Origin: Nitrosospira sp. Nsp11
Lineage (GTDB): Bacteria > Pseudomonadota > Gammaproteobacteria > Burkholderiales > Nitrosomonadaceae
Reading direction: 5' to 3'
NCBI RefSeq assembly: GCF_900142705.1
Contig: NZ_FRBV01000009.1
Coordinates: 1 to 64,000 of the forward strand
Length of the DNA: 64,000 bases
The notes beneath the pieces were generated by a model that did no database searches, had not been told where the DNA came from, and worked only from the letters and a program-made list of their open reading frames with translations. Position numbers and translations under genes: made by a program. Shown one piece after another: positions 5,154-19,839 of the stretch (positions within the stretch are counted from its first letter, which is position 1; each line of letters opens with the position of its first letter).

Positions 5154-6041
5154 TTATCCTCTCGCGCCATTCACGTAAGCGGCGGTTAGCTCGTGTGCGG
5201 GAGATTCGAAAATCTGCCGGCAATGGCCAAATTCAACCAGGCTTCCGGCATGGCCTCTTACCCAAAAAAACGCCGCGTAGTTCGCGATCCGTCGCGCCTG
5301 CGCCAGATTGTGGGTAACGATGACAATCGTGTAGCGGCCTCGCAAGCGGCTGATCAGGTCTTCGACTATACCCGAGGCAATTGGATCAAGCGCGCTGCAG
5401 GGTTCATCCATCAGCAGTATCCGTGGATTCAGGGCCAGCGCGCGGGCAATGCAAAGACGTTGCTGCTGCCCGCCTGAAAGACTGAGCGCAGACGAATGCA
5501 GCCGGTCATGCACCTCCTCCCACAGCCCGACATCCCGCAATACCTGTTCGATAATGGCTACCGTGTCTGCACGCCGCTTAACACCATGCTCGTGCAGAGG
5601 CAGTTCGATATTACGGTAGATCGAGAGCGGAAATGGCGTCGGCTTCTGGAATACCATGCCTATCTGCCGCCGTAATGCCTGTACGTCGCGGGCGGGGTCA
5701 TGGATGTCACCACCATCGATGCAAATGCGGCCGGTAATTCCACAGCCGGGAATCAGGTCGGTAAGCCGATTGATGGAGGATAGAAAACTTGTTTTTCCGC
5801 ATCCCGAAGGCCCGATCAGTGCAGTAATACAGCCGCGGTAAATATCCAGTGTAACGTTGGCCAAGGCGGTCTTGAGGCCGTAACGAAGGGAAAAATTTTC
5901 GACCTGGATCAAGGGCTGAGGGTCGCAACACGCTGGGCCCGCCTGTACCGGCCCCAGCGTATAGCCATTGTCGGCCTTGAGCGGGGGGTCATCAGCGGCT
6001 TTGGCGGGTTCTGTGGGTGTGGGTTCAGGCTCGCGGTGCAT
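5154..6041 (-). CDS. pstB: Phosphate ABC importer ATPase
   Basis: A 295-residue ABC ATPase with Walker A at residues 77-85 (GPSGCGKTS), the signature LSGGQ at 188-192 and Walker B ILLMDEP at 208-214. The family assignment to PstB rests on overall sequence and on its place behind pstS, pstC and pstA. It carries an unusual proline-rich N-terminal extension of about 40 residues before the ABC domain, compared with roughly 255-260 residues for typical PstB. Its ATG overlaps the pstA stop by 17 bases. No phoU follows. Confidence 0.92.
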   Translation of the reverse strand: MHREPEPTPTEPAKAADDPPLKADNGYTLGPVQAGPACCDPQPLIQVENFSLRYGLKTALANVTLDIYRGCITALIGPSGCGKTSFLSSINRLTDLIPGCGITGRICIDGGDIHDPARDVQALRRQIGMVFQKPTPFPLSIYRNIELPLHEHGVKRRADTVAIIEQVLRDVGLWEEVHDRLHSSALSLSGGQQQRLCIARALALNPRILLMDEPCSALDPIASGIVEDLISRLRGRYTIVIVTHNLAQARRIANYAAFFWVRGHAGSLVEFGHCRQIFESPAHELTAAYVNGARG

Positions 6042-6933
6042 CGATATTTGAGTATCCGTTTGAGTTCTCTGCCATTATCTTCCGACGCTGCCAGTCAGTA
6101 GCCAGGCGCATGGCCACCATATTGATGAGTAGTAGCGCTGCTATCAGCACCAGCGCGGACGCATAAGCTGCGGCATCGCCGCCGGGGACATTCATGGATA
6201 GATCGAAAATATGTACTGCCAGAGTCCGTCCTGAATCGAGCAGCGAACCCGGCGTGCGATCGACATAGCCGCTGGTAAACAATAGCGCCGCGGTTTCGGC
6301 AATGGCGCGGCCGATCCCCAGCAGCAGTCCCGCAGCCAGTGATGGCGCGGCGATTGGCAATAACAAACGAAACAACGTCGAAGTGCGCGACATGCCCAAG
6401 GCAGCGGCAGACAGGCGATGTGCATCAGGTATTGCGCGTAAGCCCGACTCGGCGGTACTGACGAGAATGGGCAACAGCATGCAAGCCAGGGTCAGGCCAC
6501 CCGAAAGGATGGAAAATCCCAAGCCCAGATAAATGCTGAAAAAGGCATTGCCGAACAGGCCGAAAACGATAGAGGGAACTGCGGCGAGCACCTGCAGGCT
6601 ATAGCGTACCGCACCGCCAAAGCGACTGCCGGCAGAAACGTATTCGGCAAGTAACGCAGCAGTTGTCCATCCCAGCGGCAGGGCTGCCATCAGAGCAATC
6701 GCAAGCACAAGCGCAGTGGAAACGAGGATAGAACCGATGCCCCCGGCACGGCCAGCGTCCCGCGGCGAACCTATGACAAAATCCAGGGAAAGATGCGCCA
6801 TGCCACCGCGCGCAATATCGCTCAGTATCCACGCAAACGCCGCACAGACCAGTAACGCGGCGCAGTAGATTGCTAATTTTGCGAAGCAATCGCGAGGAGT
6901 ACGCATTGATTTCATCGAAACCATTTCAGCCAT
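6025..6933 (-). CDS. pstA: Phosphate ABC importer permease PstA
   Basis: An inner-membrane permease of about 302 residues with six predicted helices. The cytoplasmic EAA-type loop is seen around AALGMSRTSTLFRLLLPIAAPS, with GIGRAIAETA following, as is typical of PstA. I place the start at the ATG 6931-6933, inside the end of pstC, giving an 8-base overlap; ATGs at 6939 and 6924 are alternatives. It pairs with PstC to form the channel for phosphate and is coupled to PstB. Confidence 0.9.
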   Translation of the reverse strand: MAEMVSMKSMRTPRDCFAKLAIYCAALLVCAAFAWILSDIARGGMAHLSLDFVIGSPRDAGRAGGIGSILVSTALVLAIALMAALPLGWTTAALLAEYVSAGSRFGGAVRYSLQVLAAVPSIVFGLFGNAFFSIYLGLGFSILSGGLTLACMLLPILVSTAESGLRAIPDAHRLSAAALGMSRTSTLFRLLLPIAAPSLAAGLLLGIGRAIAETAALLFTSGYVDRTPGSLLDSGRTLAVHIFDLSMNVPGGDAAAYASALVLIAALLLINMVAMRLATDWQRRKIMAENSNGYSNIDAPRA

Positions 6934-7804
6934 TGCCATTTCTCGCCAGCCGGGCTGCAATGCTCCAGAGCAACATTACGAGGAGCATGAGTGCCAGGCC
7001 CGATACGAACAGTGCAGCCCGATGGTCGTTCATGGCATAGGGCATCTCCAGCGCGATATTGGCAGCCAGAGTACGTATCGGCTCGAACAGGCTGGAGGCG
7101 TTTTGCACGACGTTGCCCGTGACCATCAATAAGGCCATGGTTTCGCCGATAGCGCGGCCAGCTGCGAGAATGACGCCTGCGGCGATACCCGTTTTTGCTG
7201 CCGGTAGTGCAACACCCCGGATCGTCCCCCAGCGGGAAAGGCCCAGTGCTGTTGCGCCCAGCATATATTCGCCAGGCACGGCCAATAGCGCGGCGTACGC
7301 AGTGAGCGCGATCGTAGGCAGAATCATCAGCGTCAGCACCAGAATCCCGGCCAGCAGGCTGGCGCCGGGTGGATGCAACTGGTTGATCAGCGGCACCAGG
7401 GTAGTCAGCCCCCAGAAACCGTAGACCACGGAAGGAATACCCGCCAGCAACTCAACCAGGCGCCGGTAGATGCTTGCCGCATGCGGCGATGCGTAATAGG
7501 CGATAAACAGCGCCGAGGCGATGCCCAGCGGGGTTGCCAGTAATAGTGCACCGGCTGCGGCGTAAAGGGTACCGGACAGCATGGGCGCCAGGTTGTACAA
7601 GTTTTCTCCTGGATTCCAGGAAGGATCGGTGAGAAAACGCTCGATCGATATATGCCGCAGCGCCGGCCAGGACTCAATCGCGAGGAATAAAAGGATCAGC
7701 AGCACCACGCCCATCGCGGCGCCTGCTGCGCCGCGCAGCAGCCAGAGCGTCAGCGTATCAACGGAAACCGACGGGGACAAAATATTGTGCCTCGACCAGA
7801 TCAT
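6926..7804 (-). CDS. pstC: Phosphate ABC importer permease PstC
   Basis: About 292 residues with six predicted helices and the permease loop around ALGLSRWGTIRGVALPAAKTGI followed by AAGRAIGETMALLMVTGN, characteristic of PstC. The gene overlaps the end of pstS. The ATG at 7804 (MIWSRHN) gives a 47-base overlap; a TTG at 7825 or a TTG further downstream are possible, and no strong ribosome site decides between them, so the N-terminus is uncertain. With PstA it forms the inner-membrane phosphate channel. Confidence 0.9.
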   Translation of the reverse strand: MIWSRHNILSPSVSVDTLTLWLLRGAAGAAMGVVLLILLFLAIESWPALRHISIERFLTDPSWNPGENLYNLAPMLSGTLYAAAGALLLATPLGIASALFIAYYASPHAASIYRRLVELLAGIPSVVYGFWGLTTLVPLINQLHPPGASLLAGILVLTLMILPTIALTAYAALLAVPGEYMLGATALGLSRWGTIRGVALPAAKTGIAAGVILAAGRAIGETMALLMVTGNVVQNASSLFEPIRTLAANIALEMPYAMNDHRAALFVSGLALMLLVMLLWSIAARLARNGNG

Positions 7805-8591
7805 GTACCTGTTCCGAACGGGCAAACGCTATGAAATCCCGCGCCAGCCCTTGCGGTGCAGCCCGCGTTACGAGGTTAAGCGGCCGCGATAGAGGAAAAG
7901 TACCGTTACGTACATTCACTACGGTAGCCGCGACGCCATCGAGGGGCAGTAATTTAATCGGGGTGCCATGCCGTGCTTCGTATTCTGCCGCACCGATCGA
8001 TACATAACCGATGGCGTTCGGGTTGCCGGCTACCGTCTTGATTCCCTGCGCGTTGTCGCCGATGATCACGTGTGGCCTGATATCGCTGTTCTTCAGCTTT
8101 AAATAGCCCAGAAACAGCTCAAGTGTGGATCGGCCTTCGGCCTTGTTAATGGCGGTTATGGGTGCATCTCGCCCGCCTAGCGTCTTCCAGTTGATGATTT
8201 TGCCGGTATAGATATCGATAACCTGCTGTCGGCTTAGCCCGGAGATCGGGTTGCTCGCATTCAGAATAAGCCCAACACCATCCAGGGCAATGGTATGTGC
8301 TTGTAAATCCTGCTCGGCCGGTTTCAAGGCGCGGGATACCATGCCGATCCCTGCAGTTCCGTTGCGCGTGTCGTTAATACCGCGGGAAGAACCGCCGGTC
8401 TGCACGTCTATCCGCGTACCGGGATGTTGCGCCTCGAAGCGCCGGGCGATTTCCGCTGCCAGCGGGGCGATGGTGCTGGCGCCGGTTAAAACCAGTTTCT
8501 CCGGAGCAGCGTTGCCAGGTTGAGCCCAGCCATTTACCAGCAATAGTGCCGCAATAAATAAGGCATATTTCTTTGTCGAAAATATCCTCAT
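7758..8591 (-). CDS. pstS: Phosphate-binding periplasmic protein
   Basis: A 277-residue substrate-binding protein with an N-terminal signal peptide (hydrophobic to about residue 28, cleavage near GNAAP). The phosphate-binding loops are visible as TGASTIAPLA near the mature N-terminus and GGSSRGINDTRNGTAGIGMVSR. It belongs to the shorter PstS-like group. The start codon lies only seven bases from the boundary of an inverted-repeat element (8599-8761), so the native promoter has either been displaced or is now supplied by or read through that element. I found no Pho box directly upstream. Confidence 0.88.
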   Translation of the reverse strand: MRIFSTKKYALFIAALLLVNGWAQPGNAAPEKLVLTGASTIAPLAAEIARRFEAQHPGTRIDVQTGGSSRGINDTRNGTAGIGMVSRALKPAEQDLQAHTIALDGVGLILNASNPISGLSRQQVIDIYTGKIINWKTLGGRDAPITAINKAEGRSTLELFLGYLKLKNSDIRPHVIIGDNAQGIKTVAGNPNAIGYVSIGAAEYEARHGTPIKLLPLDGVAATVVNVRNGTFPLSRPLNLVTRAAPQGLARDFIAFARSEQVHDLVEAQYFVPVGFR

Positions 8592-8598
8592 TCTCTTA

Positions 8599-8761
8599 GC
8601 CCGGATGTTTCATAAATTCGCGTGATGATTGCGCAGAATTTTGTTTTGTAGGGAGATTTTGTGAAAGAGTGGCGTAGTTATTCATACGCCCGACTGAACG
8701 AAATTTTCATACGAAACAAAAGACCAGCAAGGGCGCGCGTCAATTTATGAAACATCCGGGT
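8599..8761. repeat. MITE-like element, family A (19-bp terminal inverted repeats)
   Basis: A 163-bp element bounded by perfect 19-bp inverted repeats CCCGGATGTTTCATAAATT (8600-8618 and, as reverse complement, 8742-8760). Both ends are flanked by TA (8597-8598 and 8762-8763), as expected for a TA target duplication. It has no coding capacity. The centre holds a 6-bp hairpin, GGCGTA/TACGCC at 8671-8676 and 8685-8690. It fills the whole space between pstS and the TVP38-oxidoreductase gene, and its last base forms part of the TAA stop codon of the latter. Confidence 0.8.
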
Positions 8762-10896
8762 TAGCCTCGCCGCCATGCATGGTACTTTTCCACCCAGTCC
8801 AGAAGGCGGTACGGTATGTGTGCACGCCTCCACTCGCCTGCCGCATATTTGTTGGCCTCCGACCAGGTCGGATAAGTGTGAATGGTACCAAGTATCTTTT
8901 TGAGGCCGAGGTTGTGTTTCATCGCCAGCACAAATTCCGCCAGCAGGTCGCTGGCATGGTCACTCACAATAGTCGCACCCAAGATACGATCGCTGTCCGG
9001 TGGACTGAGCACCTTGATAAACCCATGTGCTGCTTCATCCGTAATAGCGCGATCCAGGCCTTCCAGGTAATAGCGGGTCACCTCGAATTTAATGCCGCGC
9101 CTGTTTGCTTCCGCCTCCGATAAGCCGACGCGGGCAACCTCTGGATGGGTGAACGTAGCCCATGGAATCACCGAGTAATCCACTTTGAAACGTTTGAGGC
9201 CGCCAAACAATGAATTGACCGACGCATACCACGCCTGGTGGGCGGCGACGTGCGTAAACTGATATGGCCCGGCCACATCTCCGCACGCATAGATGTTGGG
9301 ATAGAGCGTCTGCAACCACGCATCCGTTTCAATCGTCCCCTTTGGCGAATTCGAAATTCCGAGTTCCTCGAGACCGAATCCTTCGGTATTAGCCGTTCTT
9401 CCCACCGCGCACAGCATCGCGTCAAATGGAATGGCTTCCTCCTTTTCGTCATGGCGCACAACCAGCCGCTGTTCACCGGCTCCGCTTTCGCAACGAATAG
9501 CATCGGTTTGGGTTAGGAGACGCACTCCATCGGCGCGAAGCGCAGACTCGATTAGTGCAACGGCGTCCGTATCCTCCCTTTCCAGCAGCCCTGATCTCGC
9601 CACTTGCGTGACTTGACAATCCAGACGCGCAAATGCTTGCGCCAACTCGCAGCCGACAGGCCCGCCGCCTAGAACGACGAGCCGGCCGGGTCGCTCGGTA
9701 AGCGACCAGATGGTGTCGGAGGTGTAGTAGCGCACCTGCTCCAGCCCCGGGATCGGCGGAATAGCGGGGCGCGAACCTGTAGCGATGACAATCGCGCGCG
9801 TACTTATGATTTGCCCGTTGACCTCCACCGTCCAAGGCGAGGTGATGCGCGCTTTGCCATGGATTACCTCCACCCCCAGCTTTGTATAGCGTTCTACCGA
9901 ATCATGCGGCTCGATCGTTTTTATGATGCGATGTACACGCGCCATTACCTCGCCAAAACTGTATTCGACGGTTGCGCCACTGAAACCCAGGTCTTTTGCA
10001 TGTCGCGCCTCCCTCAGGAAAGTAGCCGAACGGATCAGCGTCTTGGAGGGCACGCAGCCAAAATTAAGGCAATCCCCCCCCATCTTGTTCGTTTCAATCA
10101 GCGTAACCCTGGCGCGGGTGGCCGCTGCAAGGTAGGACGTCACCAAGCCCGCCGAGCCTGCGCCGATGACCACCAGATTACGATCGAACCGGATTGGTTT
10201 AGTCCAACGCGCGTGTATATTTCCAGCCCCTCTCATCCTCACACGCTCCACTGCCCACCGTGCCAACCAAGGGAATATGGCGAGCAACGCGAAAGACGCT
10301 ATCAGCGCCGGCGAGAAAATATCGGAAAGGCTGGTAATCGAAGCTAACTGCGTGCCGGCGTTAACATAAATTGCCGTCCCGGGCAGCATGCCCAACAGGC
10401 TGATCCAGAAGAAGGTACCGGCTGGTATTGCCGTCAGCCCCATCAGCAAATTGATTATGAAAAAAGGAAATACCGGTACCAGGCGCAAAGTGAAAAGATA
10501 AAATGCACCGTCGCGCTTGATGCCAGCGTCGATTGCCGTCATGCGATCGCTGAAACGTTGCTGCACGAACTCCCGAAAGACGTAGCGCGCCATCCATAAT
10601 GCGACCGTAGCACCAATACTGGCGGAAATGACAGCCAGCGGAATGCCGACCCAGACACCAAAAATGGCGCCGCCCGCCAACGTCATCACACCGGCACCGG
10701 GGAGGGAGAGTGCAGCTATGACAATATAAATGCCGGCATACAGACCCATCATTTGCAGTGGCCGTGCATGATAAGCCTGTTGCAGCTCATCACGCCCGCT
10801 CTTGAGCGTTTCCAGGCTGAAGAAGCGCCCGAGATCAAACGCCAGGAACAAAATAATCAACAATACCAGCAACACGAGCAGCCACCAATGTTTCAT
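8761..10896 (-). CDS. TVP38/TMEM64 membrane domain fused to a FAD/NAD(P) disulphide oxidoreductase
   Basis: A 711-residue fusion. Residues 1 to about 225 form a TVP38/TMEM64 (SNARE-associated, DedA-like) membrane domain with the family's GxxF/RLxPxFPFFxxNLxxG segment around residues 136-153. Residues 240-711 are a group I pyridine nucleotide-disulphide oxidoreductase: FAD-binding GAGSAG at 245-250, redox pair C276/C281 in GGDCLNFGCVPSK, an NAD(P)-binding GGGPVG segment, a CGDV motif and the C-terminal HTYPTWSEA histidine. It resembles mercuric reductase but has neither the N-terminal metal-binding domain nor the C-terminal cysteine pair needed for mercury transfer, so MerA is unlikely. Such fusions are known in bacteria; the substrate is not. 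Its stop codon abuts a MITE-like element. Confidence 0.85.
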   Translation of the reverse strand: MKHWWLLVLLVLLIILFLAFDLGRFFSLETLKSGRDELQQAYHARPLQMMGLYAGIYIVIAALSLPGAGVMTLAGGAIFGVWVGIPLAVISASIGATVALWMARYVFREFVQQRFSDRMTAIDAGIKRDGAFYLFTLRLVPVFPFFIINLLMGLTAIPAGTFFWISLLGMLPGTAIYVNAGTQLASITSLSDIFSPALIASFALLAIFPWLARWAVERVRMRGAGNIHARWTKPIRFDRNLVVIGAGSAGLVTSYLAAATRARVTLIETNKMGGDCLNFGCVPSKTLIRSATFLREARHAKDLGFSGATVEYSFGEVMARVHRIIKTIEPHDSVERYTKLGVEVIHGKARITSPWTVEVNGQIISTRAIVIATGSRPAIPPIPGLEQVRYYTSDTIWSLTERPGRLVVLGGGPVGCELAQAFARLDCQVTQVARSGLLEREDTDAVALIESALRADGVRLLTQTDAIRCESGAGEQRLVVRHDEKEEAIPFDAMLCAVGRTANTEGFGLEELGISNSPKGTIETDAWLQTLYPNIYACGDVAGPYQFTHVAAHQAWYASVNSLFGGLKRFKVDYSVIPWATFTHPEVARVGLSEAEANRRGIKFEVTRYYLEGLDRAITDEAAHGFIKVLSPPDSDRILGATIVSDHASDLLAEFVLAMKHNLGLKKILGTIHTYPTWSEANKYAAGEWRRAHIPYRLLDWVEKYHAWRRG

Positions 10897-11114
10897 CCTG
10901 GGCGCCTCTAAATCTGATTTGCAAGTACTGTCAGGGGAGTTATCTGCGCGCGTGCGTCTCGCACCGTCAATAAAACCTGTTTATAAACTATCGTCAGACT
11001 GCCACTACCTTGATAAGCAGACTAACTGACAGGTTGAGCTTGGTACAAAAGCCATTTCATTTCTCGCCTCTTCATTGGCTTCCTGAATCGCGAAGATTAT
11101 TCCTGAAAACGATT

Positions 11115-11237
11115 ATCCTAAATCCGGTAGTTGACTGCTCATTTAGTAGATCAGCATTATGATTAATAACAATATTTCATATTTATGACGCTCACCTTGT
11201 GGGTGAGGCCGCTACGTCCAACTACCGGATTTAGGAT
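11115..11237. repeat. MITE-like element, family C, copy 1
   Basis: A 123-bp element with perfect 19-bp terminal inverted repeats ATCCTAAATCCGGTAGTTG (11115-11133 and reverse complement at 11219-11237). Inside it is a hairpin CTCACC/GGGTGAG near 11190-11207. It ends three bases before the stop codon of the radical SAM gene. A degenerate second copy lies at 47992-48107. The sequence between 10897 and 11114, upstream of the oxidoreductase gene, holds no gene. Confidence 0.8.
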
Positions 11238-11240
11238 TAT

Positions 11241-12203
11241 TCAATTACCTCGTTTCATTTCGCTGCATGAAGCACCATGTCTGAAGCAACTGTAACAGCG
11301 GTGATGCTTCATGCTCACGGCCATTTGCATGGCTTCCGTCAGTGTTTCCCCCAGAATATAGTCCGGATCATCATCCACGAGAGTGCAGGCATAAACCCGT
11401 AACCGCCCGTCGCTTTTCGCGATCATCTTGCTGAACGCACACATGAATGAGCGGCGAGCCTCTTCGGTATGAAAGTCTGTCATGCAGTGTTCGGTGATAT
11501 GCGGCGATTTCACCTGTGCACCCGGCGAGTGAAATTCGGGAAATTCGATACGCAGCAGATCCTCAGGTAAGCCCGCAGTGCGAAAAACTTCTCTGAAGCG
11601 TGCCGAAACAGTTTCCGGGGTGAGGTCAGGCAAAAGCTGATTCGCCACCGAAATATTGAATCCCAGTTCATGGAGTGCTCGCAATCCTTCCAGCGCACGG
11701 GCGAACATGCCTTCACCACGCCCGGCATCATGCCGGACGGCGTCGGGATAATCCAGGCTCACGCGAAAACTGAGCGAGGACGGCCGGTCGCGCAGCGGTT
11801 CGAGTTGCTTCAGGCGCTTGATCAACGGTTCGGTTGCGTTGGTCAGCACCAGGCACGGTTTGTACTGCAACGCGTAATCGAGAATACGAAAGATATCCTT
11901 ATTGATTAATGGTTCGCCCCCGGTGAAGGAAAACTGTTTGACGCCGAGATCGAGCGCCTCATCCACAAACGGAACAACTTCTTCAAAGCGCAACAGCTGT
12001 AAGCGGTCGTCTCCCGGTTTCGAGCCCTCGAGGCAAAAGGGACAGGCAAGGTTACACGCAGTGCCGGTATGGAACCACAATTCATCCAGCGCATGCGGCC
12101 GAATAAAGCCGCGTGGCTGATCGTCAGGCGTGCGCCGCCAGTTTTCGGAACGGCTGGATCCCTCGCTACTGATGGGGATGATCTCCTCGTACCCGATGCC
12201 CAT
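11241..12203 (-). CDS. Radical SAM protein with SPASM-like cysteine-rich C-terminus, in an arsenic-type operon
   Basis: A 320-residue radical SAM enzyme. C50, C54 and C57 (CNLACPFC) bind the catalytic 4Fe-4S cluster and the SAM-contacting TGGEP is at 94-98. The C-terminal part has six more cysteines (C240, C255, C273, C303, C306, C313), the kind of set that holds auxiliary clusters in SPASM or twitch domains. It lies three bases after the ArsM-like gene, last in a four-gene operon. The arsenosugar enzyme ArsS is also a radical SAM protein, but this one lacks the ArsS C-terminal domain I would expect, so I do not name it ArsS. It may do the equivalent 5'-deoxyadenosyl transfer to dimethylarsenite or a different step. 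Function is inference from context. Confidence 0.72.
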   Translation of the reverse strand: MGIGYEEIIPISSEGSSRSENWRRTPDDQPRGFIRPHALDELWFHTGTACNLACPFCLEGSKPGDDRLQLLRFEEVVPFVDEALDLGVKQFSFTGGEPLINKDIFRILDYALQYKPCLVLTNATEPLIKRLKQLEPLRDRPSSLSFRVSLDYPDAVRHDAGRGEGMFARALEGLRALHELGFNISVANQLLPDLTPETVSARFREVFRTAGLPEDLLRIEFPEFHSPGAQVKSPHITEHCMTDFHTEEARRSFMCAFSKMIAKSDGRLRVYACTLVDDDPDYILGETLTEAMQMAVSMKHHRCYSCFRHGASCSEMKRGN

Positions 12204-12206
12204 GGA

Positions 12207-13262
12207 CTAGCAACATCCGCCCGATTGATTGCCTGCGGCGTCGCGAATTGTATCGTCGAAAGGTAGTCCTGTGCCGCAACCGGGGAAAATACCGTAGTGC
12301 CGATCAAAGTTACCGTAGAAGTCAAAATGCGTGGCCAACCGGGTATCATGCAGCATGCGCCAAGAGTTGCCGCAGATAAGGAAGAACTTGCCGGTCTCGA
12401 TGCGGTGGTGCTTGTCGAGCTCAAACACATGAGGATGATGCGGTATCGTGCCGCGATAAACCACGGCCTGACCATAGTCCTCGCAGGCGGATTCCAGGTT
12501 GTCCAACTTGAATAATCGATAAGTAGCAGAGTAAAAGCGGATGTTTCCGGTTCGCGCAGCCAGCTCCGCGTTTCCAATAGTAATTCCGTGATCGTCAACC
12601 AACCGCGGATCGGTAAAGCCATGTGCGCGGGCCAGGCCGAGAAAATCGTTCCAGTACAGCGCTCCGCTCAGGCATTCACCATATAACACCGGGTCGGCGG
12701 TAAGTTCCGGGGGCACTCTCCGATCAGCATACACATCTGAAAAATATAGCTCCCCTCCGGGCTTGAGTACCCGCCACGCTTCGCTCAATACCGCCGCCTT
12801 GTCGGGGGCAAGATTGAGCACGCAGTTGGATACGATGACATCCACGCTGGCATCTGCCAGTTGGAGTTCGGATAAGCGCTCGATATAGCCATGCAGAAAA
12901 CGCACGTTGCTCTCTGCATGCCCAAATGCCTTACGGTGATATTCCTCATGCCGGGACGCAACCGCAAGTTGCTCTTCCGTCATATCCACCCCAATTACCC
13001 GGCCATGCTCTCCCACGAGCTTCGATAGTACGTAAACGTCGCGTCCGGCGCCGCACCCAAGATCGAGTACGGTCAAGCCATCGAGCGATTCTGGCAGCAC
13101 CAGGCCACAGCCGTAGTAACGAGCCAGCACCTCATCATGTACCTGCGCCAATATGGGCTTCACATATTCGGGCAAGCCTGCATCCGTCCGGCACGCGTTG
13201 GTCTGAAGATCGAGCGAAGAGCTCAGAATTTGTCCATAGTATTGCTGAATAGTGTCATGCAT
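12207..13262 (-). CDS. arsM: ArsM-like SAM-dependent arsenite methyltransferase
   Basis: A 351-residue class I methyltransferase with the SAM-binding motif DLGCGAGRD at 67-75 and VIGVDMTEEQL after it, typical of As(III) S-adenosylmethionine methyltransferases. The cysteines used by ArsM to hold trivalent arsenic have counterparts: C24 in LQTNAC, C147 in SNCVLNLAPDK and C197 in GECLSGAL. The C-terminal region of about 120 residues extends beyond the catalytic fold and ends in GGCC, an extra thiol pair (C350, C351). The start at 13262 is fixed by a GAGGTGA ribosome site; an upstream frame extension is not needed. Expected product: mono- and dimethylated arsenic that could feed the neighbouring radical SAM enzyme. 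Confidence 0.8.
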   Translation of the reverse strand: MHDTIQQYYGQILSSSLDLQTNACRTDAGLPEYVKPILAQVHDEVLARYYGCGLVLPESLDGLTVLDLGCGAGRDVYVLSKLVGEHGRVIGVDMTEEQLAVASRHEEYHRKAFGHAESNVRFLHGYIERLSELQLADASVDVIVSNCVLNLAPDKAAVLSEAWRVLKPGGELYFSDVYADRRVPPELTADPVLYGECLSGALYWNDFLGLARAHGFTDPRLVDDHGITIGNAELAARTGNIRFYSATYRLFKLDNLESACEDYGQAVVYRGTIPHHPHVFELDKHHRIETGKFFLICGNSWRMLHDTRLATHFDFYGNFDRHYGIFPGCGTGLPFDDTIRDAAGNQSGGCC

Positions 13263-13284
13263 GGCATTCACCTCATGATCGGAA

Positions 13285-13983
13285 TTAAACCGTTTTGGAA
13301 CGATAGCGCGCCGCCAGCCTTTCGGGCGCGACGCCACGCGCGAAAGCGAACGCCAGATTGCGATTTGCCCAGGTACGCCGCCACCACCCGTCGCGATGCC
13401 AGCGGCGCGGATCGATAAAAACCGATTCGCGTAAAGGTAGAAATCGTCCTATCCGGCGTAACCCTCGAACCAGAGATACTTCCTCGAACAGGGGCCAAGG
13501 GGAGTGGCCGCCCACCTCCGCATAGGCCTGCCGGGTCATGAAAAGACCCTGGTCACCATATGGAATGCCGAAACGGCAACGAAAGGCGATAGCCGGCTCC
13601 AGCAGTAGTGCTGGCCAGGCACGCGGCTCATCGAAACGAAAGCGAAAATAGCCTCCTACCGCACCTTGCGCTAATGCGCGGCCCATCGCCTTCAACGGAT
13701 CGTGCGGCAAACGGATGTCGGCATGCAGAAACCATAAGGTGTCACCTTGCGCCAGCGCAGCACCCGACAGTAATTGCCCTCCCCTGCAGGGTTCGCCGGC
13801 TATCCAGCGTGCGTCGTATTGATGGCAGATGTTGCGGCATGACGGGCTGTCGGCCCCATCTGCCACGATGACCTCCAGCGCCCCTTGAAATGAGTTATCC
13901 GGCAAATTTCGCAACTGGCGGAGCAGATCGACCAGCTTGCTCTCGTCATGATAGCAGGGAATAATCGCACTAAAACTGGACAT
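13285..13983 (-). CDS. Family 2 glycosyltransferase of the arsenosugar-associated TIGR04283 type
   Basis: A GT2-like protein of about 232 residues. It begins SFSAIIPCYHDE, continues with EVIVADGADSPSC (nucleotide-sugar site), FLHADIRLP (acidic metal-binding motif) and GIPYGDQGLFM. This is the pattern of the short transferases that NCBI annotates as arsenosugar biosynthesis glycosyltransferases (TIGR04283), which habitually sit next to a TIGR04282 protein, as here. The ATG at 13983 overlaps the preceding gene by 14 bases and a purine-rich GGGAGCGG is upstream. It would add a sugar, or remodel one, on the arsenic-containing nucleoside-derived product; the activity is not proven for the family as far as I know. 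Confidence 0.78.
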   Translation of the reverse strand: MSSFSAIIPCYHDESKLVDLLRQLRNLPDNSFQGALEVIVADGADSPSCRNICHQYDARWIAGEPCRGGQLLSGAALAQGDTLWFLHADIRLPHDPLKAMGRALAQGAVGGYFRFRFDEPRAWPALLLEPAIAFRCRFGIPYGDQGLFMTRQAYAEVGGHSPWPLFEEVSLVRGLRRIGRFLPLRESVFIDPRRWHRDGWWRRTWANRNLAFAFARGVAPERLAARYRSKTV

Positions 13984-14671
13984 GACTCCGCTCCCTCCAG
14001 TGGGCCAGATCGCAAGCCAGCCCATGCAGCGCTCGCCGTGCCGGCCGCTGATCCGTATTCAACGCTTCGATCAGACGAATGACATCGTCTTCTTCATCCA
14101 CATCGAAACTTTGTGCCAAGTTAACGACCGATTGTCTCGCAGATCGGCAACAATTGGCCAGCGCAGCACCAAGGCGCGCTGTGCTCCACGGCAAGCTGCT
14201 CAACGCCGGCCATCGCTTCCGGCTCGCCATCAGTACCACACCGCCATCCGCTGCCGGCTTCAACACGGTATCATGACTCATCAAAGCCTCGTAAACCGCC
14301 GCATAATCGGGCGGCGCAAGCAGGGGCGCATCACTGCCGATATACACCAACTGTTCCAGCCCATAGCCGCGCAGCTTATGATCCAGTGCATTAAGCCTTT
14401 GTCCGAGATTGCCCTTTTTTTGCGGCTCTATACGTGTTTTTAGTCGTACCCGCGCCTGCGGCAATAGTGCGGATGCCCAAGCATGATCCACCGGATCCGC
14501 AGGAGCGATTACCACCGGACCGGGCCAAGCACGCGCGTCTTCCAGCGCGCAGGCGAGCAACGCCTCGGCGATGCGATTTGCTGCCTCTCCACCTACGCTT
14601 GCAGCCAACCGTTGCTTGCCGACTCCCGATGCCGGGCGCTTGCACACCAGCACCAGCGCGGCTTCTGTCAT
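13970..14671 (-). CDS. CofC/DUF2064-like nucleotidyl or glycosyl transferase of the TIGR04282 type
   Basis: A protein of about 233 residues starting TEAALVLVCKRPASGVGKQRL, the CofC/MobA-like nucleotidyltransferase opening, and containing YIGSDAPLL and a PAADGGVVLMA segment. These mark the DUF2064/TIGR04282 group, annotated as arsenosugar biosynthesis glycosyltransferase-like. It is the first gene of the four-gene operon. I use the ATG at 14671; a TTG at 14737 would add 22 residues not seen in the family. No strong ribosome site precedes it. Confidence 0.75.
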   Translation of the reverse strand: MTEAALVLVCKRPASGVGKQRLAASVGGEAANRIAEALLACALEDARAWPGPVVIAPADPVDHAWASALLPQARVRLKTRIEPQKKGNLGQRLNALDHKLRGYGLEQLVYIGSDAPLLAPPDYAAVYEALMSHDTVLKPAADGGVVLMASRKRWPALSSLPWSTARLGAALANCCRSARQSVVNLAQSFDVDEEDDVIRLIEALNTDQRPARRALHGLACDLAHWRERSHVQF

Positions 14672-15050: not shown

Positions 15051-16889
15051 TTACCGCTGCCTGTACCATTGCTCGAGCATCATCAGTACCCAAACCATGG
15101 TGCCATGATATCCCGCATGCTCATTCAGATGCTGCCCTAGCAGCTTATCGATAAAATCGGGGCGAACGATGCGCCGGGACTTGAGATCGCTCAGACTATC
15201 CGAAGCCAGAGCCTGCAGTGGCTTGTGCTGCTGGAGCCACACACCGAAAGGTAAACCGAACCCGTGTTTTTGCTTGGTGATGATATCGTCAGGCAAGAAA
15301 CCGCGTAGTGCTTCCTTGAAGAAATATCGTAATTTTGTACCCTTGAGCTTCAGATGGGGCTCGAGTTGCAAGGAGAAAGCCACAATTTCATCGCTGATCA
15401 GGGGAAACGCAACTTCCATTCCGGCTAATTCGCAAGCCATGGCGACTTTGGGCAGGTCGTTATCGGCAAGCGTGAACTTTCGATCGAAAGCCAGCATACG
15501 ATTTATCAGACTCGCGGCGTTGTTCTCATGATAGATTTCATCGAGAAGGTTAGCTGGGTTACCAGGATTAACCGTGCTTAGAAATTCCGCCGTAAAAACT
15601 TCCCTGGAGCCGTAGCGTTCTAGCAGGTTGTAAGTCTCTGTGCGGGCGGGCATCGGAATCGAGGCCTGTTCGATATAGCTGCGCGCCTTCTTTATCAGCG
15701 GCAACACCGCTCCGCCGGGAATGCCAAAAACCAGCGGCTCGATAATTCCTTTGCGCACCACGGAGGGCGTTTGCCCATAGAGGGAAAAGAGATGTTGCTT
15801 GGCATAGCGAACGTTGCCGCCGAAGAGTTCGTCCCCTCCGTCTCCTCCCAATATCCTGCTGAGGCCGTCAGCTTTCGCCATGCGCGCGCAATAGTAGGCA
15901 GGGATGGCAGACGCGTTGCCAAAAGGCTGATCGAAAATCGCCGCGACTAGGGGAATGGCGCTTACTATGTCATCCGGAGTGACATAGTACTCATGATGCT
16001 GCGTGGAAAAATGTTTCGCGGCGATGCGCGCATATTCCATTTCATCATATCCGGAGGCATCGAAGCCAATGGAATAGGTGTGTGCCGGTTGGCCCGAAAC
16101 CTCACCTAATAATCCCGCGATGGTCGAACTGTCGGTTCCTCCGCTCAGGAACGCGCCGACCTGCTGATCCCCGACCGCTTCGCGGACGCTTGATCGCAGT
16201 ACATGCATGAAATCCTGCTTGAGCTCCTGGAACGGGCGTTTCTCGTTCTCCTGAAATCGCATTTCCCAATACTTGCGTGTCTCAACGTTTCCCTTTCGAT
16301 AAATCAGGTATTCGCCGGGCAGAAGACGTTTTTGCCCCTGATAAATCGTATCCGGGCCGGGTACCATATGGAAATAGAGATAGTTATACAGGCCTTGTGG
16401 AGCGATATCCGGTGTAGCCGCTGAGTGCAGGTTTACGGCGTCTGCCGATGAACCAAAAACCAGCCGTCCTCGATCGTTGCAGTAGACGAGCGGACATATG
16501 CCCATACGATCGATTGCCAAAATCGCGTCGTTGGTATTTTCATCAAGGATGCAAAGAGAAAATGCGCCCGTCAAATTTTTGAGTGCCTTTTCTCCTCTTT
16601 CCCGCCAATCCTCCGCCAGCGTTTTTGCCACGCCTTCGGTTCGCGCAAGCTGGATTAGGCGCGGTTCAAGAAAATTGGCCCGCCCCCATAATGCCAGGAA
16701 AAGCCCATTCTTTTGGTAAATGTGCTTGTTATCACTGCTTGCAGCAATGGCAAGACCGCTGTTTCGTCCAGCAACTGCCTCAACAACACTGCCATCGAAA
16801 CGGGCAAGAGGTCCAGCCATTCGCCTGGCAAGCTGGAGATTCTCGGTAACGGATCCGTCCTGGCCTGTCCAGCCGCACAACCCGCTCAT
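15051..16889 (-). CDS. Asparagine synthase-like amidotransferase of the XrtA exopolysaccharide cluster
   Basis: A 612-residue protein of the class II amidotransferase/asparagine synthase family. The C-terminal synthetase domain has an intact ATP pyrophosphatase loop (SGGTDS, 249-254) and GGDGGDELFGG. The N-terminal glutaminase domain is degenerate: instead of Met-Cys the protein begins MSGLCGW, so no cysteine can become the N-terminal nucleophile after removal of methionine, and the usual RGPD segment is not evident. It may therefore use free ammonia or act as an acyl-amide ligase. It is the third gene after an acyl-CoA ligase and a PLP decarboxylase, a trio known from exosortase A-associated clusters. 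Its substrate there is unknown. Confidence 0.8.
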   Translation of the reverse strand: MSGLCGWTGQDGSVTENLQLARRMAGPLARFDGSVVEAVAGRNSGLAIAASSDNKHIYQKNGLFLALWGRANFLEPRLIQLARTEGVAKTLAEDWRERGEKALKNLTGAFSLCILDENTNDAILAIDRMGICPLVYCNDRGRLVFGSSADAVNLHSAATPDIAPQGLYNYLYFHMVPGPDTIYQGQKRLLPGEYLIYRKGNVETRKYWEMRFQENEKRPFQELKQDFMHVLRSSVREAVGDQQVGAFLSGGTDSSTIAGLLGEVSGQPAHTYSIGFDASGYDEMEYARIAAKHFSTQHHEYYVTPDDIVSAIPLVAAIFDQPFGNASAIPAYYCARMAKADGLSRILGGDGGDELFGGNVRYAKQHLFSLYGQTPSVVRKGIIEPLVFGIPGGAVLPLIKKARSYIEQASIPMPARTETYNLLERYGSREVFTAEFLSTVNPGNPANLLDEIYHENNAASLINRMLAFDRKFTLADNDLPKVAMACELAGMEVAFPLISDEIVAFSLQLEPHLKLKGTKLRYFFKEALRGFLPDDIITKQKHGFGLPFGVWLQQHKPLQALASDSLSDLKSRRIVRPDFIDKLLGQHLNEHAGYHGTMVWVLMMLEQWYRQR

Positions 16890-17020
16890 GATAGATCTCC
16901 GGTTTTCTTGTACATCATCTTTCCATCGTTTCGTTAATTTTCGTTAATGATTGCTTGCTGGCGAATTTGCGGACGATCAAGCGACTCATCTCAAATAAAA
17001 CATCGATGCTACGTTGGTTT

Positions 17021-18256
17021 TTAAACCAGCACTTCGGCGGGTGGCGGATGGCCGAGAAATGCCGTCGGGCTTGCGGTCAAGCCGTAAGCACCCGATTGCA
17101 AAATGACAATTAAATCCCCGGCTTCCGCTTTGCTCATTTCCATGCGATCCGCGAGCAGATCCAGTGGCGTACAGAGCGGTCCCACCACCGAGACAATTTC
17201 CCTTTCGGCACTATTTACCTTGTTGCCGACGATTACGGGATAATTCTTGCGGATGACTTGGCCAAAATTTCCGGAAGCTGCGAGATGGTGATGCAATCCA
17301 CCATCAGTTACCAGGAATATTTGCCCTCTTGATTCTTTTCGCTCCAGTACACGGCATACATAAATGCCTGCCTCCGCTATCAGATAACGCCCAAGTTCGA
17401 TCACCACTTGCGCATCGGGAAGTTGCCGTCTCGCCTCAGGCATCAGGTGTCGTAAATTTTCACCGACCTCTGCTACATTCAATGGCTCGTCTCCAGGAAA
17501 ATAAGGCACCCCGAAGCCGCCGCCTATATTCAGCAAACGAACCGGACCGGGTGCGTGCCTGGCAAGGGAGATTCCCAGTTGCAAGGTCTTTTCGTGGGAT
17601 TCCTGGATAGCCGCCACTTTCAGATTTTGCGAGCCGCTAAAAATATGGAACCCTTCGAAATCGAGTTCAAGCTTAGCCATTCGGGCCAGCATTGCTGGAA
17701 CTCGTTCTGCATCGACGCCAAACGGCTTCGCTCCTCCGCCCATTTTCATGCTGGAGGATTTGAGTTCAAAATCCGGGTTGACACGGACCGCTACTTTCGG
17801 ACGAATACCAAGGTGATTGCCCAGATTGGCGATACGCTCCATTTCCTGCTCGGATTCCATATTAACGATAATGCCTGCAGCGATCGCGCAGGAAAGTTCC
17901 TGGTCGGCCTTCCCTGGCCCGGCAAAACTGACCTGACATGAAGGCATGGGTGTATCCAGAGCGATTTTCATTTCGCCGGCAGATGCCACGTCCAACCCAT
18001 CCACCAGACCAGCCATATGCTGCACAACCGCAGGCATGGGGTTAGCCTTCATTGCGTAGTGGAGGTGAACCTCGGCAGGAAGATGTTGACGCAGAAGGGC
18101 AATCCTATCCGTAATGCGCTGCCGGTCATAAGCATAGAATGGGGTTCTGCCTACCCGCTGCACCAACCGCTTGAGGGACATGCCTCCAATCTGAAGGCAG
18201 TCGTCGCGGCTCGAGAATTGAACCATTGAGGCATGTTTTGGCCGGACATTATTCAC
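17021..18256 (-). CDS. PLP-dependent decarboxylase, exosortase A system-associated (TIGR03099 type)
   Basis: A 411-residue fold type III decarboxylase related to diaminopimelate/ornithine decarboxylase (LysA). The PLP lysine is in HYAMKANP and the phosphate-binding glycine-rich loop in LLNIGGGFGVPY. The CGPLCTP-like segment of this family appears as VVGPLCTPLD. The start is a GTG overlapping the ligase stop as GTGA, so the two genes are translationally coupled. It presumably makes an amine that is joined to an acyl group by the flanking ligase and amidotransferase-like protein; this is inferred from conservation of the trio next to XrtA genes. Confidence 0.86.
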   Translation of the reverse strand: MNNVRPKHASMVQFSSRDDCLQIGGMSLKRLVQRVGRTPFYAYDRQRITDRIALLRQHLPAEVHLHYAMKANPMPAVVQHMAGLVDGLDVASAGEMKIALDTPMPSCQVSFAGPGKADQELSCAIAAGIIVNMESEQEMERIANLGNHLGIRPKVAVRVNPDFELKSSSMKMGGGAKPFGVDAERVPAMLARMAKLELDFEGFHIFSGSQNLKVAAIQESHEKTLQLGISLARHAPGPVRLLNIGGGFGVPYFPGDEPLNVAEVGENLRHLMPEARRQLPDAQVVIELGRYLIAEAGIYVCRVLERKESRGQIFLVTDGGLHHHLAASGNFGQVIRKNYPVIVGNKVNSAEREIVSVVGPLCTPLDLLADRMEMSKAEAGDLIVILQSGAYGLTASPTAFLGHPPPAEVLV

Positions 18257-19839
18257 GCGCCGGTCTCCATGAAAGTATTCTGCAATTCCTGGGCAAGGAA
18301 TTTCCGGTCAATTTTCCCGTTGGGGTTCCGCGGTAAATTGCCTTCCTTGCACTCGATCGAGCTCGGCAGCATGAAAGCGGGAAGATGAAGCTTACACGCC
18401 GCAAGCAACGCGTCCTGGTCAATTCTCGAGCCTGCTCGCGGCGTAACGATCAGAATAATGGCCTGCCCCAATACGGGGTGAGGAGCGCCAACGGCAGCGG
18501 CCTCTCCCACAAGCTCCGTCCCATAGATCACCTCTTCGATCTCGGTGGGGCTGACGCGATAGCCGGACGTCTTGATCATTTCATCGCGGCGGCCAATGAA
18601 ATACAGAAAACCTTCCTCATCCATGCGCACGGTATCACCCGACCACACCGCCAATTCCGGAATAGTCAACCCCGACTGGCGAGACGGAACGGGTTTGAAC
18701 CGCTCGGCGGTTTTTTCCTGGTCGTTCCAGTATCCCATGGAAACAAGCGCGCCACGATGCACCAACTCTCCCGGCTCCCCGGCCGCACAGAGTGATCCAT
18801 CCTCCCGTACCACCAGCACTTCCGCATTCGGGATGGCTTTACCTATGGAGTCGGGGCGTGCGACCACTTCCTCGGGTGGAAGAAAGGTCGAACGGAACGC
18901 CTCGGTGAGGCCATACATGAGAAATACTTCTGTATGAGGGAGAATGTTGCGCAGCAAATCGAGCGTCGCTCGCGGCATTGCCCCCCCGGAATTGGTGATG
19001 TAACGCAATGAATTATCCGCTGGCCAGTTCAATTGGGCCAGTTGAATCCACAACGGAGGCACTGCGGCAAGACCTGTGATTTTTTCGTCCTCAACCGTGT
19101 GGATGATATCCCGCGGCAGCAAATAATTCATCAGGACAGCGGTAGCTCCGACCTGAAATGCCGTGGTAAGCTGGTTGAGCCCATAATCGAAACTCAACGG
19201 CAGCACCGACAGAATTCGATCATCCGGCGTATTCTTGAGGTACTGAACTACGCTCGTTGCTCCCGCCACCAGGTTTCGGTGGGAAAGGACTACGCCTTTT
19301 GGCTTGCCGGTGCTTCCGGAAGTGTAGAGAATCGCAGCCATATCGCCATCAATACTATGATGCGCTTTAGCATGGCCCCGTGCCGTCAACGCGTCGCTCC
19401 ATGAGATGACACTAATGCCGGAAACGACGGGCGCAAGCTCGGCCGAACCCACTAGCATGATGGCATGCAGATCATGGCATTGCGGCAAAACGGTGGCAAG
19501 CAGCTTCAACCGGTCGGCTGAGGTGACGAGGACCCTGACATTGCAGTCGCGAAGAATGTAAGCCACCTGCTCCGGCTTCAGGAGCGGATTGACGGGTACG
19601 AATACGCCGCCCGCGGCTGCGGCACCATACAATGCGATAACAGTTTCCAGGCGTTTTTCGAGATAAATAGCGACGCGTTCGCCTCGCCCAAGCCCTAAAG
19701 CGAGCATGGCTGCGCCAGCTGAGCCAATATCCTCGGCCAATGCGCCATAGCTTGTTCGATTTCTCTGATGCACGAGCGCTTCTTTATCGGAAGCATGATC
19801 AGCAGACTTGAAGATGAGTTCGTGGAGGAGATCTGCCAT
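18253..19839 (-). CDS. Acyl-CoA ligase (AMP-forming), exosortase A system-associated (TIGR03098 type)
   Basis: A 528-residue adenylate-forming enzyme. The P-loop-like core motif YTSGSTGKPKGV, a YGLTEAFRST motif and WSGDTVRMDEEGFLYFIGRRDEMIK define the ANL superfamily; the C-terminal lysine is in NPNGKIDRKFL. It activates a carboxylic acid as acyl-AMP. First of the three-gene unit with decarboxylase and amidotransferase-like gene. A ribosome site GGAGGAG-like sequence is not near the ATG, which is preceded by AGGTATTTTCG. The acid is unknown. Confidence 0.86.
   Translation of the reverse strand: MADLLHELIFKSADHASDKEALVHQRNRTSYGALAEDIGSAGAAMLALGLGRGERVAIYLEKRLETVIALYGAAAAGGVFVPVNPLLKPEQVAYILRDCNVRVLVTSADRLKLLATVLPQCHDLHAIMLVGSAELAPVVSGISVISWSDALTARGHAKAHHSIDGDMAAILYTSGSTGKPKGVVLSHRNLVAGATSVVQYLKNTPDDRILSVLPLSFDYGLNQLTTAFQVGATAVLMNYLLPRDIIHTVEDEKITGLAAVPPLWIQLAQLNWPADNSLRYITNSGGAMPRATLDLLRNILPHTEVFLMYGLTEAFRSTFLPPEEVVARPDSIGKAIPNAEVLVVREDGSLCAAGEPGELVHRGALVSMGYWNDQEKTAERFKPVPSRQSGLTIPELAVWSGDTVRMDEEGFLYFIGRRDEMIKTSGYRVSPTEIEEVIYGTELVGEAAAVGAPHPVLGQAIILIVTPRAGSRIDQDALLAACKLHLPAFMLPSSIECKEGNLPRNPNGKIDRKFLAQELQNTFMETGA

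Follow-up and report, generated by a model that had tools for sequence, protein, structure and literature searches.

What does an arsenosugar-type operon make when the radical S-adenosylmethionine (SAM) enzyme that it encodes is not a standard ArsS? The question is raised by four genes on the minus strand, at positions 11241..14671, of a 64,000-nucleotide stretch of DNA from Nitrosospira sp. Nsp11, a relative of soil ammonia-oxidizing bacteria (contig NZ_FRBV01000009.1, positions 1 to 64,000; the whole of this stretch is called the window below). ArsS is the known marker of the bacterial arsenosugar pathway and the enzyme that starts arsenosugar synthesis. According to excerpts of two papers, it adenosylates arsenic in the synthesis of oxo-arsenosugar (PMC12159101) and works with ArsM (PMC8552651).

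An earlier reading, made from the letters of the DNA alone (the sequence-only reading), held that the operon may use a different radical SAM enzyme to make an arsenosugar, or else may make a different organoarsenical altogether. We favour the first of these options, because the radical SAM enzyme, which we call RSAM, and ArsS exclude one another, have partners in common and appear to have swapped them, and because both have phosphorylase genes among their neighbours in a few loci. The second option is kept alive by the separate clades of the partner transferases and by the 16 of 51 RSAM genomes without an ArsM match, both of which are weighed below. Judging from sequence comparison, RSAM is probably a remote relative and a functional replacement of ArsS, transferring a 5'-deoxyadenosyl group to methylated arsenic.

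Results

The four genes of the operon

The close packing noticed in the sequence-only reading is as described there. The first gene, T4282 (13970..14671), overlaps the second, T4283 (13285..13983), by 14 bases; 22 bases separate T4283 from ArsM (12207..13262), and 3 bases separate ArsM from RSAM (11241..12203). As to the family labels of the first three genes, T4283 is a glycosyltransferase-like protein that passes the NCBIfam cut-off for TIGR04283 (189.8 bits, cut-off 182) and matches Pfam Glycos_transf_2 (42.1 bits, above 23.3). The label of the CofC-like T4282 is less secure, since the protein scores 107.5 bits against TIGR04282 and stays below the cut-off of 134, although this is its top family in NCBIfam; it matches Pfam DUF2064 at 57.4 bits, above 25.8.

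The third gene encodes a long-type arsenite SAM methyltransferase of 351 amino acids. Its best NCBIfam matches include arsenite methyltransferase models, but it is above no cut-off among the best 25 models (PRK11873.1, for example, gives 172.4 bits against a cut-off of 263), and the label rests on solved structures instead. Five solved arsenic methyltransferases match with E-values of 2e-80 to 4e-108, including PDB 5evj (3.8e-108) and 4kw7 (3.4e-90), both of which we take to be algal enzymes. Residues C24, C52, C147 and C199 align with cysteines 44, 72, 174 and 224 of the 4kw7 chain, and four conserved cysteines are needed by most ArsM enzymes (PMC8552651, excerpt). The structural matches, together with the four catalytic cysteines kept in the sequence, make the identification as ArsM convincing.

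RSAM and its family

RSAM is a protein of 320 amino acids with the core motif CNLACPFC (C50/C54/C57) and a GGEP motif. The six further cysteines that had been noticed between C240 and C313 (C240, C255, C273, C303, C306 and C313) are indeed there, and are invariant in all 47 aligned relatives. Among the best 25 of 59 NCBIfam models, RSAM is above no curated cut-off. Its top model is the Rv1681 family NF049973 (104.9 bits, cut-off 380, residues 41-212), with weak matches to StsB and MoaA; in Pfam, Radical_SAM alone is above its cut-off. The curated ArsS model, TIGR04167, gives 42.2 bits against a cut-off of 300 and covers residues 35-187 only. By this model RSAM is rejected as an ArsS, in agreement with the earlier view that it is not a standard one.

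In structural terms, the barrel is followed by a cysteine-rich C-terminal extension that matches those of twitch/SPASM enzymes, and the nearest solved folds include SkfB, SuiB, BlsE and MoaA. The best 50 matches of each fold search name no ArsS or ArsL, whose presence in the PDB was not checked.

Relatives of RSAM were taken from the best 80 of at least 558 loci, and these 80 are mostly beta- and gammaproteobacterial. Among the NCBIfam and Pfam models listed, none gives a name to RSAM or to three scanned relatives; of two relatives on plasmids, one bears the annotation 'radical SAM protein', and no feature is listed for the other. In the open-licence literature, we found no publication describing the family by its title or the start of its abstract. 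We judge RSAM to belong to an unnamed radical SAM family.

Similarity between RSAM and ArsS

When profiles of the two families are compared, they align over 276 columns (98.2%, with an E-value of 2.7e-14 for one comparison). In this alignment C255, C273, C303, C306 and C313 of RSAM fall on C250, C265, C303, C306 and C314 of ArsS. Among the radical SAM proteins compared from the window's genome, RSAM tops the matches to the ArsS profile, at 32.4 bits against 15.2 for the next; conversely, in one ArsS genome (G020) ArsS tops the matches to the RSAM profile, at 45.1 against 33.4.

From its sequence, then, RSAM looks like a remote relative of ArsS, one whose C-terminal part resembles those of twitch/SPASM enzymes and places five cysteines much as ArsS does. 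The sequence-only reading had held that RSAM has no ArsS-type C-terminal domain. As far as the curated model goes, that stands; for the cysteine layout it probably does not, because in the full-length profile alignment the C-terminal cysteines align with those of ArsS, though the C-terminal part by itself reaches 13.3%. This match, which goes beyond the earlier reading, would make RSAM less unlike ArsS than was supposed.

RSAM and ArsS are not found together in the genomes searched

We searched 51 RSAM genomes for ArsS: 48 from the 80 loci, together with G000, G015 and G146, some of them draft or metagenome assemblies. None of the 51 contains an ArsS above the cut-off, and the 28 weak TIGR04167 matches in these genomes are RSAM itself, as a comparison of coordinates by hand shows.

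The same pattern is seen in an even sample of the class, consisting of 274 genomes, in which the window's own genome and a weak member in G817 are counted among the RSAM genomes. T4283 is present in 164 of these genomes, ArsS in 137 (134 above the cut-off) and RSAM in 6, and no genome of the 274 has both ArsS and RSAM. T4283 accompanies ArsS in 137/137 genomes and RSAM in 5/6. A naive Fisher test of the exclusion gives p = 0.015 over all genomes and p = 9e-5 among those with T4283; without the own genome these become 0.03 and 5e-4, and when G817 is also left out the latter becomes 0.003. Because the genomes are related to one another, these naive values overstate the exclusion.

Partners common to RSAM and ArsS

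A fifth gene follows that the sequence-only reading did not include. On the same strand, 344 bases beyond RSAM, lies a gene of 711 amino acids (8761..10896) in which a VTT/TVP38 membrane domain is fused to a pyridine nucleotide-disulfide oxidoreductase (Pfam VTT_dom, Pyr_redox_2, Pyr_redox_dim), and a related oxidoreductase recurs beside the relatives of RSAM. We counted four partners, namely T4282, T4283, ArsM and the oxidoreductase, within 5 kb. From 84 RSAM loci we excluded the own genome and two relatives (L001-L003, of about 4 kb each), which leaves 81, the best 80 and a distant one (L004).

At least one partner is present at 73 of the 81 loci. The sequence-only reading would have been refuted by homologues lying mostly away from ArsM, TIGR04282 and TIGR04283 genes, and this is not what we see, with the oxidoreductase counted as well. 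ArsM is near RSAM in 46/81 loci, and the oxidoreductase in 42/81. At the 34 betaproteobacterial loci we find ArsM in 32, T4283 in 32, T4282 in 31 and the oxidoreductase in 24; at the other 47, T4283 in 29, T4282 in 25, the oxidoreductase in 18 and ArsM in 14. Such counts are lowered by the many contigs that end near RSAM. Conversely, because the partner test is loose (phmmer, E-value 1e-4), some matches to T4283 and the oxidoreductase may be general relatives, an example being the distant glycosyltransferase in Marinobacterium and Motiliproteus. In the class sample, four of the five RSAM loci besides the window's have partners, and one of these (L175) has T4282, T4283, ArsM and the oxidoreductase.

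ArsS keeps similar company. Of 28 ArsS loci of the class, T4282 and T4283 are each near 25, ArsM near 13, the oxidoreductase near 12 and TVP38 near 7. Eight of these loci are all the same-class and same-order rows of a phylum sample and 20 were taken from the head of the list for the class, so that they are not a random draw. At 12 ArsS loci of other classes (L127-L134, L143-L146), ArsM is found in 8, and of the other partners there is none except one oxidoreductase.

Apparent swaps of partners

Quick trees were made of T4283 (52 rows: 29 from RSAM and 23 from ArsS loci) and T4282 (50 rows: 26 and 24), with the window and up to 28/29 RSAM loci picked by hand. Each tree requires three changes between RSAM and ArsS context, as compared with about 17 when contexts are shuffled, and none of 500 shuffles is as low. 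As we read them, one of the three is the main split, and the other two are exceptions that recur in both trees.

The first exception (L141) is an ArsS with RSAM-type transferases, on the same strand and 3.7 kb off. They fall within a branch with support of 100 in the T4282 tree and 86-92 in the T4283 tree, and the genome is without RSAM, its top match being 42.8 bits. The second (L064, from Halomonas) is an RSAM with ArsS-type transferases, with support of 98 and 100, in a genome without ArsS. By these trees, partners have apparently been swapped in both directions between RSAM and ArsS. Natural swaps of this kind would allow one to compare which step each partner performs.

Phosphorylase-like neighbours

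At 6 of the 84 RSAM loci, RSAM adjoins a gene resembling S-methyl-5'-thioadenosine phosphorylase, with gaps of at most 227 bases; the gene is on the same strand in L042 and on the opposite strand in L055, L060, L072, L073 and L080. A further locus, L176, also has such a gene beside RSAM on the same strand, and the proteins of L176 and L042 pass TIGR01694. ArsS adjoins a gene of this kind at two of 40 loci, on its own strand in L135 and on the opposite one in L136. No such phosphorylase is found among the window neighbours scanned against NCBIfam. An enzyme of this type could in principle take the adenine off a 5'-substituted deoxyadenosine; alternatively, it could merely recycle 5'-deoxyadenosine, which many radical SAM enzymes release as a by-product (PMC8102628, excerpt).

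Discussion

A proposed pathway

If RSAM replaces ArsS, the pathway might run as follows. ArsM, whose catalytic cysteines are in place, would methylate arsenite. The iron-sulfur cluster held by the CxxxCxxC motif of RSAM would then cleave SAM, and the 5'-deoxyadenosyl group would pass to the methylated trivalent arsenic; the motifs, fold and cysteine layout of RSAM suggest that its C-terminal part carries an auxiliary cluster, as in SPASM/twitch enzymes. Adenine would be removed by an enzyme of the methylthioadenosine-phosphorylase type, clustered with RSAM in a few genomes and otherwise presumably encoded elsewhere. More speculatively, the CofC-like T4282 might activate an arsenic-bearing ribose phosphate, and T4283 might attach it to an acceptor, yielding an oxo-arsenosugar. 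The membrane-anchored disulfide oxidoreductase might, equally speculatively, keep the arsenic trivalent or the thiols reduced.

Were this proposal true, ArsS-less Nitrosospira, Nitrosomonas, methylotrophs and marine Gammaproteobacteria would become candidate arsenosugar makers, and RSAM would be a second enzyme for a carbon-arsenic bond, a role that is directly testable.

Evidence against the proposal and alternative explanations

Several observations, set out here with the alternatives on which they bear, weigh against RSAM as a stand-in for ArsS. The C-terminal part of RSAM, taken alone, reaches 13.3% against that of ArsS, which is not significant, with 11 control proteins at or below 4.9%; since this part is weak by itself, the tie between the two enzymes rests on the full-length alignment, the context and the exclusion. 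When the comparison is confined to the barrel, RSAM is matched by another radical SAM protein from its own genome with a score as high as that of a single ArsS. In 5 of the 11 ArsS genomes with a match to the RSAM profile, the best match is not ArsS. The motifs differ as well: GGEP in 47/47 RSAM proteins as against GGAPE in 40/40 ArsS proteins, and CNLxCPFC in 46/47 as against CNxxCxHC in 40/40. Each family also has conserved cysteines of its own, C117 and C240 in RSAM, C102 and C132 in ArsS.

The partners show a similar division. T4282 and T4283 from RSAM and ArsS contexts form nearly separate clades, and because of this the product may differ. The long-type ArsM stands beside RSAM in 45 of the 46 loci with an ArsM near, and beside ArsS in 3 of 13, so that neither operon is a copy of the other. 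At 8 of the 81 loci (L004, L034, L061, L067, L075, L076, L082 and L083) all four partners are absent near RSAM, and the weak member in G817 is the one of the five class-sample loci without partners. Finally, the swapped transferases of the Halomonas locus are on the opposite strand, 1.9 kb from RSAM.

One may ask whether the large RSAM family represents a second line of enzymes that form arsenic-carbon bonds, one that has co-evolved with transferases of its own and whose product is not the known oxo-arsenosugar; we regard this as doubtful. An alternative is that RSAM makes a different carbon-arsenic bond (for example with monomethyl arsenic, or to a 3-amino-3-carboxypropyl group as in ArsL) and that the diverged T4282 and T4283 finish a new organoarsenical. 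The separate clades, the differing extra cysteines and motifs, and the long-type ArsM beside RSAM would all fit such an enzyme. But the exclusion of ArsS, together with the apparent swaps in both directions, argues that the step is the same or can be exchanged, and the phosphorylase-type neighbours fit a 5'-substituted adenosine, even though they could serve only to recycle 5'-deoxyadenosine. As for chemistry like that of ArsL, RSAM is without the long N-terminal part of that enzyme, and no GntP-type permease is found among the window neighbours scanned against NCBIfam. On this evidence we think a different bond unlikely.

A different possibility is that T4282, T4283, RSAM and the oxidoreductase make another kind of compound altogether, such as a phosphorus compound, with ArsM an accessory in some lineages only. 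Of the 51 RSAM genomes, 16 give no ArsM match at an E-value of 1e-20, and one more gives a single weak match. A plasmid of Roseomonas (L209, 2974-9934) carries a row that comprises TIGR04282, DUF547, two radical SAM genes, a phosphonate-type ATP-binding cassette (ABC) transporter and a phosphoesterase; there is no ArsM in the stretch shown. The second of the radical SAM genes encodes a distant relative, which has 38% identity to RSAM across 87% of its length and scores 61 bits against the ArsS model. A protein similar to this phosphoesterase (26% identity, E-value 1e-8) is encoded close to RSAM in Marinobacter L071. Members of the wider RSAM family can thus have genes for phosphonate-type transport as neighbours, and oxyanion transporters are also near in Nitrosospira (pst-like ABC) and in L059 (PHO4).

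Phosphate-type transporters, however, can carry arsenate too. PitA, for instance, is called a phosphate/arsenate transporter in an excerpt of PMC8552651. Moreover, ArsS loci have the same partners, ArsM is within 5 kb of RSAM in more than half of the loci (46/81), and the long-type ArsM is enriched in RSAM genomes: in the class sample it occurs in 4/6 of them, in 19/137 ArsS genomes and in 2/131 of the remaining genomes. The difference between RSAM genomes and those with neither enzyme has a naive p of 2e-5, or 2e-4 without the own genome. We consider a non-arsenical pathway distinctly improbable.

Least of all do we credit the notion that RSAM is a maturase of ribosomally synthesized and post-translationally modified peptides (RiPPs), or a cofactor enzyme of the SPASM/twitch kind, placed here by chance: its nearest folds (SkfB, SuiB, BlsE, MoaA) and its weak StsB and MoaA model matches would suit one, but the same partners recur across many bacterial families and RSAM excludes ArsS, so that the idea is very improbable. 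A RiPP maturase finds no support in the gene context, precursor peptides not having been searched for.

Neighbouring genes and related observations

Between RSAM and the oxidoreductase lies a repeat resembling a miniature inverted-repeat transposable element (11112..11240). It abuts the RSAM stop codon; its 22-nucleotide terminal inverted arms (11112-11133 and 11219-11240) are 95% complementary, and elsewhere in the genome it is matched 15 more times at 100 bits or above. A scan for promoters and terminators gave fewer sites than in shuffled sequences and was not used.

Beyond the operon, on the same strand, are genes like those of a phosphate ABC transporter (5154-8591; PstS model 166 bits against a cut-off of 206.6). 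Related genes also come after the operon at L005-L008, L027 and L038, and L018 has one of them in that position. Upstream lie exosortase-A associated genes (15051-19839), comprising an asparagine synthase-like protein below its cut-off, a pyridoxal-dependent decarboxylase (627.7 bits, cut-off 478) and an acyl-CoA ligase (813.8 bits, cut-off 592).

Three arrangements in other genomes may be recorded. At two Lentisphaeria loci (L065, 4052-4711; L074, 2785-3444), a gene lies between ArsM and RSAM whose product, according to a scan of the one in L065, has oxidoreductase domains that bind FAD and NAD; it is a possible electron donor. At L059 (1886-5488), RSAM is followed by a sigma factor like those of extracytoplasmic function, ArsM, one more gene and a PHO4-type phosphate transporter. 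An Aromatoleum island carries a gene called 'moaA' together with a TIGR04282 gene (PMC8801600, excerpt), and this 'moaA' might be a candidate member of the RSAM family under another name.

Comparison with known systems

The system closest to that of the window is ArsS (TIGR04167). RSAM shares with it the kinds of operon partner and the barrel of radical SAM enzymes, and is of similar size; the two profiles align from end to end, and in that alignment five C-terminal cysteines fall in the same order. RSAM differs in its curated score, in lacking GGAPE and CNxxCxHC, in its extra cysteines, in the clades of its T4282 and T4283, and in the type of the adjoining ArsM.

ArsL, of the arsQML genes for arsinothricin, is likewise encoded beside arsM and likewise has a CxxxCxxC radical SAM motif. 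In an excerpt of PMC8552651 it is described as a protein of 428 amino acids, with the motif at 194-201, that lies with a GntP-type permease. RSAM, by contrast, has 320 amino acids and its motif at 50-57, and lies with T4282, T4283 and the oxidoreductase; we have set aside an identity with ArsL on length, motif position and context, the comparison being with the description of ArsL only.

The Rv1681 family (NF049973) is the highest-scoring curated model for RSAM, but RSAM stays below its cut-off, and the C-terminal third of RSAM is unmatched. BlsE and other twitch/SPASM enzymes are about 22% identical to RSAM; BlsE acts on cytosylglucuronate, to go by its PDB name, and others act on peptides.

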